In this document: positions 50,364 to 56,055 of the stretch, piece after piece
How positions within the stretch are numbered: position 1 is the first letter of the stretch
Layout of the letters: each line of letters begins with the position of its first letter
NCBI GenBank assembly: GCA_002989075.1
Contig: PSQN01000016.1
Location: 3,302,336-3,366,335, forward strand
Source: Arthonia radiata
Taxonomy: Eukaryota; Ascomycota; Arthoniomycetes; Arthoniales; Arthoniaceae
DNA: 64,000 nucleotides
Direction: 5' to 3'
Notes under the pieces: model-generated
What the model was told of the DNA's origin: nothing
Seen by the model: only the letters and a program-made list of their open reading frames with translations
The model's database searches: none
Translations under genes and position numbers: made by a program

Positions 50364-51230
50364 ATGTCTAAGGCGGAAAATCTTCGCTATTTCCGCAGGT
50401 CGGGTGCACCTCTTCCAAACGAGTACGTGTAGAGTGATTGCCCCTTGCAGACAACGTACGTAGAACTGACAAAGCGGAGCTTACTGAACGGCGTCACAAT
50501 ATGCGTGCTCATCGGACCTTTGTCTGCCAGAAAGACGTACTCGATTCACAAGAACTTGATCTGCGCGTATGTCCTCGCGAATCCATTCCTACCCGTTCGA
50601 GATTAACGCGCGCTAACGACAAGCTAAAGCTATTCTCAATACTTCTATGCCAGTTTCAATGGCAAGTTCCTGGAAGCTGGTAAGAAGGAAGTCGTGCTTG
50701 ATGAGGAAGATATCTCCGTGTTCGATAGAGTCTACGTGTGGCTGTACTCAGGAACGCTGCACTCTGAGGCAGAGCGCCGCGACTCTCGACTCCAAAGCCA
50801 TCTTACCGACCTGTGGCTCTTTGGTGATCGTCGCAGCATGCCAGCGTTGCAGCATGCCGCACTCGATGCTCTGAACGCCAACGTCTGTGAGACATTCCAA
50901 ATCAGGGACGGCAAATTCATCTCAGTGCTCTACGCAGACTCTCCTCCTGCTGCGAAAGTGCGTCTTTGGATGGTCGAGATGTTTGCGAGAATGGACGACG
51001 AACAGCGGATACGGACCGCAATTGATCTCGCTCAGGAAATTCGCAAATCTGCTCCAGACAAAGACTTCCTTATCGCGCTCTGCAAGCGGTTGATTGAGCT
51101 CAAGCGGGAAGGCGAGAAGTCAGACAATTACAAAAAGCATTTCGAACAGTTGAGCCTATGCCAGTACCACGAACACGCGGACCAGCAAGATTGCGACACT
51201 CTTGCAAAGCAAGAGCACGGCGCTAAATAA
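50364..51230 (+). CDS. Tandem BTB protein 1 with CxxHxH tail
   Basis: BTB/POZ protein, about 248 residues, first of five tandem paralogs. Exons 50364-50422, 50480-50566 and 50630-51230; introns have ACTGAC and CTAAC branch points. The short N-terminus contains LRYFRRSGAP, a basic motif shared by the paralogs. The BTB fold: LLNGVTICVLIG, TYSIHKNLICAYSQYFYASF, FLEAGKKEVVLDEED, VFDRVYVWLYSGTL. Then LTDLWLFGDRRSMPALQHAA, the common helical block, and SPPAAKVRLWMVE. The C-terminal tail CQYHEHADQQDC fits C-x2-H-x-H-x5-C, possibly metal-binding. The second intron splits the codon after LIC, at the same place as in BTB protein 4. Function unknown; BTB proteins of this type are probably adaptors. Confidence 0.85.
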
Positions 51231-51745: not shown

Positions 51746-52449
51746 ATGTTGCAGATGACGATTGATTCTTACCGCAAGCAGGATACGCCACCAGCACACA
51801 CGTAAGTCCAAAGACTATACCATTGGTAACAGAAGAATTGCTAACCATTCTCAGGCTGATTCAAGGACCTGTGATCCGCCTAGTGGTCGGCAAGCGTCCC
51901 GAAAGCAAGACCTATTTTGCCCACAAGGCCATGCTGTGCCATTACTCAGCCTACTTCGGAGCCGCGCTTAGCAGCCGCTTCGCTGAAGGCAAGGTCGTGA
52001 AAGGCATCCAAACCGTGAAACTGGACGACGAGAACGCACTGTTGTTCGACCGCGTCTATTACTGCCTCTACAGCGGCACCATCCTGACTGAAGCTGAGAT
52101 GCGGGACTACAACATGCAGCCAATGCTCGTCGACCTTTGGATCTTCGCCGACCGGCGCATGATGCCTGCGCTTCAGAACGCTGCCCTGGACGCAATCAAC
52201 CGCAACAGCTGCGTCACTGGCAAGCTTTGTGAGATCTCTCTCATCCACGTCCTGTTCAACACGGCACCGAAGTCAAGCAAGGTCCGAGCCTGGATCGTGG
52301 AGCAGTTGGTTCGGGTGAAGAACCTTCAGGTTCTGTTCGATCGAGACGTGCCGGAAGAATGGAACTTCCCGTCGATGGAGTTCCTGACTGCGCTTACGCT
52401 GCGTTCGAATGAGCTCTTGAGTGGTGGGAAGAAGCTGATACCAGATTGA
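51746..52449 (+). CDS. Tandem BTB protein 2, tail behind an in-frame TGA
   Basis: Exons 51746-51801 and 51855-52449, phase-consistent; 216 residues to the first stop. N-terminal motif DSYRKQDTPP, then LIQGPVIRLVVG, TYFAHKAMLCHYSAYFGAAL, the DDENALLFDRVYYCLYSGTI block, and LVDLWIFADRRMMPALQNAA. The frame ends with CTGATACCAGATTGA, but stays open for 35 more codons (52450-52557), reading LNKLD then MCVFHEHGDGMDCKAL and ending TGA. That extension holds the C-x2-H-x-H-x5-C tail found before the stop in paralogs 1, 3 and 4. No in-frame intron that removes the TGA was found. So this is a truncated protein or a readthrough gene; the main frame is otherwise intact. Confidence 0.85.
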
Positions 52450-52557
52450 CTGAACAAGCTGGACATGTGCGTGTTCCACGAGCATGGGGATGGGATGGAC
52501 TGCAAGGCTCTGGCGGAAGAGGATCGGATGTTGCGAGATGATAAGATGAAGGGATGA
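52450..52557 (+). other. In-frame extension of BTB protein 2 after TGA-CTG
   Basis: 35 sense codons directly behind the stop, in the same frame, encoding the conserved family tail (CVFHEHGDGMDC) and closed by its own TGA. The stop context is TGA-CTG-A. Confidence 0.7.
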
Positions 52558-52769: not shown

Positions 52770-53593
52770 ATGGTGTACACGATGGCCACTGCAAATGCGT
52801 TGCGTTACTACCGCAAAAAGAATGCACCTCCACCGACGGTGTGAGTTCAGATTGAAAGCACAACGCAGCTATTGACTGACGGTTTAATAGACTGCTGAAA
52901 GGCCCAGTCGCTCGCGTCGAGGTTGGATCAGATCAACAGGTCTTCTTCATCCACAAGGCGCTGCTGTGTCACTACTCTCAATATTTCGATGCCGCGCTCA
53001 ACAGTTCCTTCATAGAGGGCGAAACTCAAACAGTCAAGCTAGAGGAGGAGACGCCTGAGGTCTTTGATGTCGTCTACTCATGGCTCTATACCGGCAGCCT
53101 TCAGTCAGAAGAACAAGCGAAAGACTACGAGTATCAAATCATTTTGGTCAACATCTGGTTGTTCGCTGATCGTAGAGGCATGCCTTCGCTTCAGAACAGC
53201 GCGTTGGATGCTTTGAAAAAGAACGTGGAGACGAACAGGGTGGTGACCATGACGCTCGTAACGAAGCTGTTTCGCGATGCACCAGCAAATGCAAAGGTTC
53301 GAGGCTGGGTGGTTGAAAATTTTGCATTATTGTCGGATCGGACGATGTTAGTGCGCACTTCAGAATATCTGAGGGAGAACGGGCAATTCAGCAGCTGCTT
53401 TGACTTCATGTCAATGCTAAGCCTACGGTTCTTGGACCAACGCGATCGAGTGGGTGATAAGGGCGCTAAGATCGGTTGCGACAGGGAAATGGCAGCGCTG
53501 AAGATGTGCCCGTTCCACGAGCATCGCGAGGGTGAGGATTGCAGGGTTCTGGCGCTGAAGGATGAGGAACTACGTGGGACTGGGACTATCTAG
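52770..53593 (+). CDS. Tandem BTB protein 3 with CxxHxH tail
   Basis: Exons 52770-52840 and 52891-53593; 257 residues (245-residue product if the second ATG, 12 bp on, is used: that start gives MATANALRYYRKKNAPPPT). The BTB fold: LLKGPVARVEVG, VFFIHKALLCHYSQYFDAAL, ETPEVFDVVYSWLYTGSL, then LVNIWLFADRRGMPSLQNSA and APANAKVRGWVVE. It continues into MCPFHEHREGEDC, the intact tail, before the stop. Its exon-intron layout matches BTB protein 2: a single phase-2 intron just before the LLKGP strand, and no intron after LLC. Paralogs 2 and 3 are therefore the closest pair by structure. Confidence 0.85.
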
Positions 53594-53994: not shown

Positions 53995-54851
53995 ATGACA
54001 GCATCGAAATATTATCGTAGGATGTGCTCAGGGCCCCCAGCCTCGTACGTTCTCATTTTCAGTACATAAGAAGGCAGACTAATACCCTAGTTAGTCTGAT
54101 TAAGGGCCCTTTCGCTACCATCGTTGTCGGAAATATTGAGTCTCAGACCTTTTACGTTCACAAAGAGCTGATATGCTTGTGAGTCCTGGGATAACCGTAC
54201 CCAACATCCTCAGACACGATAACACTTAGTCTCAGCTACTCTAGCTATTTTAACGGCGCACTTATGGGTGGCTTTGAAGAGGCGCAAACCGCGACTGTTA
54301 ACATCAGCGAAGAGGTTCCCGCCGTCTTCCAGTGCTTCTATTATTGGCTTTACAACGGTTCTCTATTCGAGAAACACGTAGCAGACAATGGTAGTAGTGC
54401 TGATGCCCTGTCTAAGAGAGAAGATCTAGCGTACCGGTGTTGGACCTTTGGCCACCGTCGCGGCATCCCAGGCTTTCAAAATTCGGCAATCAACGACATC
54501 AAGGACAAAGTCGCTCACTCATGGAACCTAAACGCTTCTGCGATGGACAGGACGTACGGCGACACTCCGAAGTCAGCTAAAATTCGGCTCTTCATCGCAG
54601 ATCTAGTTGCCAGCTCTGGCTTTCAACTGACACCTAAGGCAATAGCCGCAGACGGAAGCTTGGTCTCTGTGGACGAGGATGACTGCAAGTACAATCCAGC
54701 TCTCATGGCTGACTGCTATACTGCGTTGCAGAAGCGTTACAGGGCTGGAAAACCGATGCTGTCCAAGACGACGATGAAGTTGGTCGACTTGTGCCCTTTT
54801 CATGAGCATTTGGACGGCGAGACATGTTCCACGCTGGATAAGAAATCATGA
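53995..54851 (+). CDS. Tandem BTB protein 4 with CxxHxH tail
   Basis: Exons 53995-54044, 54095-54178 and 54236-54851; 249 residues. N-terminus MTASKYYRRMCSGPPAS, then LIKGPFATIVVGNIESQTFY, VHKELICFYSSYFNGALMGG, VFQCFYYWLYNGSLF, YRCWTFGHRRGIPGFQNSAI and TPKSAKIRLFIADL. The tail LVDLCPFHEHLDGETC is complete. The second intron lies at exactly the same codon (after LIC, phase 2) as in BTB protein 1, so these two keep an ancestral intron that paralogs 2, 3 and 5 lack. Sequence has drifted more than in 2 and 3. Confidence 0.85.
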
Positions 54852-55220: not shown

Positions 55221-56055
55221 ATGCCCTTGTTAAAGTACTCTGAAGCTTGCGGTTCGGGACCGGATGCATCGTGCGTGGGCCACTGCAGCGACTTAGTCGT
55301 TAACGGTAGCGTGGTTTGGACCCAGCTAACATGTCTCCGGGCTCGTGAGAGGACGTGTCAGCACCATCACAGCCGGCCATAGCAAGCCAGCCGAGGAATT
55401 GCTGATCTACATAGAGCACCTCTGCTACTATTCTACACCCTTCAAAGAAGGGCTCATTAGGTTATTAATAGAAGCAGCAACGCGTGAGGTTCATCTCTCC
55501 GACGCTAGCTCACAAGTGCCCCAGCGCTTCCACTGCTGGCTATATTGTGGGCGACTCTTTGAGCCCTCTTTGAACCCTCTGCAGACCGTAGAATCAGCTT
55601 ACGGAGAAAATAGAAAGAGGCTTACAATGTTTCGGTGTTTGGACCCCGCCGGGGCATTCCCGGCCTCCAAACTGCCGCACTTGATAGCTTTTCTATCGAC
55701 GATTCTTGAAAGCTTCGAGACCAATACAACCAAGGTCCAGGACGTGTACGCAAACACTCCGAAATCTGCAAAGGTGTGCAAATTCATTGCGACAGTCGCA
55801 GCAGCAACGTGCCTCAACATGCTCATAGACTGTAACGACGCACAGGGACCGCCATGGTCAACCGAGGATGAGGACTTGAAGGTGTCTCTAGCATTCTTCT
55901 CCAACGCGTCCTTGCATATGCGGCCGCAATACAGTAAAAGCTGCGGTACGCCGGCGGATCGCAAGCAATGACTGCGCGAGCTCGACTTGTTCCGCTTTCA
56001 CAAGCACGCAGAAGGGGAGACTTGTACAACAATCGCAGCTGCGGGGACGTCGTAG
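55221..56055 (+). pseudogene. Fifth BTB paralog, decayed
   Basis: Clear relative of BTB protein 4. A 50-nt first exon (55221-55270; MPLLKYSEACGSGPDAS) has the same length and phase as in protein 4. The second exon should begin one base before CTCGTG at 55342, but the expected AG reads GG there, so the splice acceptor appears lost. The frame then runs through LVRGRVSTITAG, EHLCYYSTPF, RFHCWLYCGRLF, and YANTPKSAKVCKFI to a TGA at 55969-55971. Behind it the frame stays open for 27 codons and encodes LRELDLFRFHKHAEGETC, the family tail with its first Cys replaced by Phe. It could instead be a divergent gene using another start. Confidence 0.6.

Follow-up and report, generated by a model that had tools for sequence, protein, structure and literature searches.

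A UGA-CUG stop shared by two tandem BTB-type paralogs of Arthonia radiata: possible readthrough into a conserved Cys/His tail

Introduction

Efficient stop-codon readthrough in Ustilago maydis requires no more than a UGA with CU behind it, the outcome depending mainly on the two bases that come next after the stop (PMC4207609). Through UGA-CU(A), the U. maydis genes tpi1, rpe1 and art1 gain peroxisomal signals. The retrotransposons of fission yeast conserve a TGA with CTA or CTG behind it between their Gag and Pol parts (PMC10085805). The mammalian readthrough consensus is UGA CUA (PMC4359377, PMC12233894), represented by LDHB, MDH1 and AQP4 (UGA CUA (G)), where the extended isoform is the minority product. 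The bases before the stop are reported to count as well: a U directly ahead of it is associated with reduced readthrough in mammalian cells, and A at positions -1 and -2 with enhancement in yeast (PMC12233894).

What might a UGA-CUG be doing between the body of a BTB-type protein and a tail that its neighbours carry without interruption? The window analysed here is a stretch of 64,000 nucleotides of the ascomycete Arthonia radiata (assembly GCA_002989075.1, contig PSQN01000016.1, positions 3,302,336 to 3,366,335), from a genome of 33.5 Mb in 16 contigs in which a profile search found 60 BTB-family places. Two genes of a tandem cluster in the window, P2 and P5, have the stop context UGA-CU, which is leaky in a fungus. 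Like tpi1, rpe1 and art1 they combine UGA and CU with a short in-frame extension that bears a recognisable motif, and in U. maydis no RNA structure is needed. The U. maydis extension adds a peroxisomal signal, whereas in P2 and P5 it is a Cys/His tail that stands uninterrupted in paralogs; the P2 and P5 extensions end in MKG and GTS, and by eye neither end is a C-terminal peroxisomal signal. The U. maydis genes also have CUA and a known readthrough product, whereas P2 and P5 have CUG and a putative product. TGA-CTG is among the conserved contexts of the fission-yeast elements, likewise in a fungus, but there it belongs to a mobile element and a Gag-Pol fusion, and the stop is preceded by GAA, compared with GAT in P2 and CAA in P5. 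The mammalian genes share the short stop context with a minority extended isoform, but their consensus is CUA, and 'CUG' is absent from the main text of PMC4359377 and PMC12233894. Among the titles and abstract openings listed by the literature searches, none reports readthrough in fungal BTB genes, and such a report may exist.

A tandem cluster of five BTB-type paralogs

Five BTB-type paralogs, P1 to P5, lie in tandem within the window (Table 1; exon boundaries are putative, and the acceptor of the P5 intron, GAG, is uncertain). P2 and P3 match the BTB profile PF00651 above the Pfam cut-off, with E values of 1.7e-6 and 5e-10. The place of P1 also exceeds the cut-off in the genome search, at 22 bits, and its exon fragment alone falls below it in hmmscan. 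The P4 exon fragment is below the Pfam BTB cut-off (E 0.09), and P4 was assigned to the family through its similarity to P3. The P5 exon fragment has no Pfam BTB match; its placement is based on its body, whose best other match is P4 (E 4.6e-10).

Table 1. Features of the BTB cluster, in positions of the window
Feature	Position	Strand	Remarks
P1, BTB-type paralog	50364..51230	+	putative exons 50364-50422, 50480-50566, 50630-51230
P1 tail LSLCQYHEHADQQDC	in P1 50364..51230	+	ordinary frame
P2 body, BTB domain	51746..52446	+	putative exons 51746-51801, 51855-52446
P2 TGA	52447..52449	+	followed by CTG 52450-52452
P2 extension, 35 codons with C-x2-H-x-H-x5-C	52450..52557	+	closing TGA 52555-52557
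P2 body and extension, whole span	51746-52557	+	
P3, BTB paralog	52782..53593	+	putative exons 52782-52840, 52891-53593
P3 tail KMCPFHEHREGEDC	in P3 52782..53593	+	ordinary frame
P4, BTB-type paralog	53995..54851	+	putative exons 53995-54044, 54095-54178, 54236-54851
P4 tail DLCPFHEHLDGETC	in P4 53995..54851	+	ordinary frame
P5 body, diverged BTB-type paralog	55221..55968	+	putative exons 55221-55270, 55350-55968
P5 TGA	55969..55971	+	followed by CTG (TGA-CTG 55969-55974)
P5 extension LRELDLFRFHKHAEGETCTTIAAAGTS, 27 codons	55972..56055	+	closing TAG
P5 body and extension, whole span	55221-56055	+	

P2 and P5 are old duplicates, since only 38 of 202 body residues are identical and 0.71 of synonymous body sites differ between them. 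P4 and P5 were grouped in a weak tree with long branches, for which, as for the coincidence figures below, the P1 model was 8 residues of exon 3 short; the alignment and the pN/pS values used the full P1 model. The P5 body appears strongly accelerated in the same weak tree (branch 6.36, compared with 0.33 for P4), and it is without some residues common to P1-P4, yet its 223 codons are open.

In the predicted structure of P3 (mean pLDDT 73, 11 rows), the long helix ends at residue 185, a short one spans 196-201 and a last one 216-228. By our own count the stop column corresponds to P3 residue 198, inside the predicted 196-201 helix, and on this model a stop there would take away the tail and keep the BTB domain and the helical body. 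No PDB structure matched the model with an E value of 0.001 or lower; BTB structures of KBTBD2 and SPOP came closest, from E 5.5e-3 upward.

The same stop column in P2 and P5

The first-pass annotation had described a TGA-CTG in P2 followed by 35 open codons in the same frame, and both the coordinates and the reading are right: the frame runs AAG CTG ATA CCA GAT TGA CTG AAC AAG CTG GAC ATG TGC GTG TTC CAC GAG CAT, and the post-stop codons encode LNKLDMCVFHEHGDGMDCKALAEEDRMLRDDKMKG. Searched against its own genome, this 35-residue tail had three matches, namely itself, P3 (E 2.6e-4) and P1 (E 0.011), and is therefore homologous to those tails and not a chance reading. Its description as the counterpart of the P1, P3 and P4 tails, all three of which stand in the ordinary frame, holds as well.

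Overlooked at that stage was P5, which also has TGA-CTG ahead of its tail and in the same column as P2. The P5 frame reads GAT CGC AAG CAA TGA CTG CGC GAG CTC GAC TTG TTC CGC TTT CAC AAG CAC, and in its tail the first Cys is replaced by Phe. The two TGA codons aligned in one column in all three MAFFT modes, and with either P1 model. The column stands seven codons ahead of the first tail Cys, and in the other three cluster genes (P1, P3, P4) it holds a sense codon, for the residues H, E and T. All five genes have a hydrophobic residue in the next column (F, L, M, M, L), so that the CTG after the stop is unremarkable and adds little. Pfam has no match in the P2 or P5 tail; from the Cys/His pattern of its sequence, the tail is a candidate metal-binding module.

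Both post-stop tails resemble translated tails of the family

Seven ordinary tails, each scored against a profile built without it, range over 25.7-43.2 bits, and both post-stop tails fall inside that range, P2 at 36.6 bits and P5 at 32.9 bits. How long could an untranslated tail keep such a score? Neutral decay was simulated with 4,000 runs per start, the outcome being that the score was reached with an open frame. The P2 score was reached in fractions of 0.154 and 0.065 of runs from the P3 and P4 tails, respectively, at 0.1 substitutions per site, 0.050 and 0.023 at 0.15, and 0.013 and 0.009 at 0.2. For the P5 score the fractions were 0.162-0.307 from P4 or P3 at 0.1 substitutions per site, and 0.042 from P3 and 0.028 from P4 at 0.2. 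Starting from the P1 tail the value was 0.000 throughout, which is uninformative, the P1 tail itself scoring below P2 and P5. By these simulations, a tail that is not translated must be young in both genes, its age being under some 0.15-0.2 substitutions per site. By 0.5 substitutions per site, less than the divergence between P2 and P5, the fraction had dropped to 0.000; a stop inherited from the P2-P5 ancestor with no translation of the tail is thus very unlikely, leaving either readthrough or two young independent stops. As for the P5 body, neutral simulation to 0.3 substitutions per site left a 224-codon body without a stop in 0.85% of the runs, and since the 223 codons of P5 hold no stop, P5 was translated for most of its history, despite its long branch.

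The pN/pS values of the tails, which between paralogs mix the periods before and after the origin of each stop, were 0.58 (bootstrap 95% interval 0.34-0.99) for P2-P5, 0.53 (0.32-0.91) for P4-P5, 0.46 (0.23-0.80) for P2-P4, 0.51 (0.28-0.90) for P1-P2, 0.54 (0.34-0.87) for P1-P5 and 0.54 (0.32-0.87) for P3-P5. Pairs of ordinary tails gave 0.73 (0.40-1.38), 0.35 (0.19-0.66) and 0.51 (0.27-0.92). In the closest pair, P2-P3, no constraint is visible, at 0.90 (0.46-1.84). A separate feature of this pair is its synonymous likeness in the tail (52450-52557 and 53489-53593), where 10 of 14 same-residue codons are identical, compared with 37 of 85 in the body; this may be noise or chance, or a short gene conversion tract.

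Readthrough, double nonsense and splicing as possible explanations

Readthrough of P2 had been put forward in the first-pass annotation as a possibility, and it is now more likely than could be known from P2 alone, because the diverged P5 shares the TGA-CTG column, the tails are family-like and UGA-CU is a known readthrough context in U. maydis. The tail pN/pS values of P2-P5 and P4-P5 lean the same way, and so do the limitation of such a stop to these two among the 10 tail carriers and the lack of a fitting donor for an in-frame intron. Most ribosomes would stop at the UGA and release a BTB protein without a tail, and a minority would insert an amino acid at UGA-CUG and continue for 35 (P2) or 27 (P5) codons, the product gaining the Cys/His tail that is a permanent part of P1, P3 and P4. 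The stop would have been inherited and not gained twice, the ribosomes would indeed have to read through it, and the tail, as a candidate metal-binding module, would presumably do something beyond the reach of the short form. Against this stand the three cluster genes that have no stop, the P2-P3 pN/pS value, the lost Cys of P5, a PGK control with an ordinary stop, a GAPDH search with no match, the U before the P2 stop (P5 has the A at -1 and -2) and an RNA fold that is not unusual behind either stop (z-scores +0.87 and +0.77 for P2, -0.17 and +0.50 for P5). A common origin also requires several losses of the stop, since P1, P3 and P4 are without it and P4 groups with P5 in the weak tree. Overall we favour the leaky UGA over two recent independent nonsense changes, and give readthrough in P2 and P5 an even chance. 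In the alternative, P2 and P5 would each have lost the tail lately, and the shared column and CTG would be coincidental, aided by a short tolerant linker and by the hydrophobic codon usual after that column, which makes the CTG unremarkable; the short proteins may remain functional, or decay of the genes may have begun. The sense codons in the stop column of three of the five genes, the acceleration of P5 and its missing first Cys, and the pN/pS of 0.90 all speak for such a double nonsense change, as do the decay simulations if the untranslated tails are less than about 0.1 substitutions per site old (0.065-0.154 for P2, 0.162-0.307 for P5). It requires two young events in one column. With even weights, the probability that two independent stops share a column ranges from 0.0043, for the whole gene, to 0.0556, for a short linker, with codon weighting from 0.0057 to 0.0327, and for the same column with both stops TGA from 0.0002 to 0.0019, in a simple model that does not fix the ancestral codon and whose values a mutational hot spot would raise. 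We regard the double change as quite conceivable, if somewhat short of probable.

Splicing would explain the TGA differently, by an intron with its 3' end at 52458 (P2) or 55980 (P5) that removes the stop from all or some transcripts. The earlier statement that no in-frame intron does so needs amending: in-frame GT-AG pairs do exist (for example 52348-52458, 111 nt), and what stands is that none has a donor of the type used in the cluster. Splicing is favoured by an AG that both genes have nine bases after the TGA, and by the putative first intron of P1, whose 3' end likewise has a TGAC eight or nine bases ahead of an AG. The seven introns of our gene models are 50-79 nt long, and all have GTNNGT donors (GTACGT, GTATGT, GTAAGT, GTGAGT, GTACGT, GTGAGT, GTGCGT). 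The in-frame pairs from GT or GC to AG were listed at 30-400 nt, with donors from 52150 (P2) or 55600 (P5) and the acceptor before the tail Cys, and no listed donor is GTNNGT; those that would remove the TGA include GTGCCG (52348), GTGAAG (52315) and GTGTCT (55882), among others. The in-frame GT-AG pairs measure at least 99 nt and the GC-AG pairs at least 69 nt, and such an intron would cut away part of the body that can be aligned to the paralogs. The better upstream donors, of the GTNNGT, GTRAG, GTANNT or GCRAGT kind (two in P2, one in P5), are out of frame, and P1, P3 and P4 continue through the stop column with no intron. We therefore consider splicing improbable. The sequence rests on one assembly, and a sequencing or assembly error would have to have struck one base in each of two diverged genes, in the same alignment column and without a frame shift, an explanation to which we attach hardly any weight. 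Outside these explanations, the P1 tail region (51138-51218) folds better than its shuffles (z -2.2, with 5 of 200 shuffles as good), possibly by chance, as one of seven stretches folded.

A further, bolder proposal, which we think less likely than not, is that an inherited UGA-CUG sorts the paralogs into those that always have a tail (P1, P3, P4) and those that have it conditionally (P2, P5), so that termination efficiency would act across the family as the switch for a module that is a candidate metal binder and not a targeting signal. If P2 and P5 are indeed read through, readthrough would extend beyond the peroxisomal-signal genes described in PMC4207609 to another class of protein, and the cluster would offer a natural comparison of one tail in two settings, behind a stop and free of it. 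If the double nonsense change is right instead, the cluster would provide a neat case of parallel tail loss.

Tail carriers in the genome

In the DNA of the first scan, 10 tail carriers were found, eight with the tail in the ordinary frame and only P2 and P5 with a stop ahead of it. The first tail profile was built from the eight ordinary tails and used in a six-frame search, which recovers those eight by construction; beyond them it found P2 (iE 1.1e-5) and P5 (iE 0.0011), the next match being at iE 2. Nine further pieces of DNA, scanned later, gave nothing better than iE 0.97. The 60 BTB places lie within the DNA analysed, with limited flanks, as judged by comparison of coordinates, and on it the profile revealed no further gene with a stop before the tail; the whole genome was searched with single proteins. 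Another '1 TGA' in the P3 search (C13:2013034-2013414) proved by its coordinates to be an ordinary stop behind a tail. The window and loci L032 upward contain 60 frames that run from stop to stop over 250 codons or more; TGA-C closes four of these and TGA-CT none, P2 and P5 being shorter than that limit. As readthrough controls in the same genome, PGK has an ordinary TGA-G stop and a short extension, and the GAPDH C-terminal domain family PF02800 had no match in the genome, in which PGK was found; a gap, a stretch left out of the searched sequence or exon splitting may be the reason. Pattern searches for relatives outside this genome gave no match in IMG/VR and 22 matches in GTDB, none of them a relative.

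Two other BTB loci deserve mention. One BTB match (L028 1501-1755, G000:C5:1110050-1110304) has a single internal TGA, for which an intron is the plain reading. In a distant paralog (L063 201-995, G000:C2:1385300-1387000), which belongs to the nine further pieces, the tail is a variant, CMDYHIHERTNSC, with a longer basic extension behind it in the ordinary frame; its C-x3-H pattern was spotted by eye, the profile having missed it (iE 6.8), and L063 was left out of the bit-score profile together with L047, which had been in the first tail profile.
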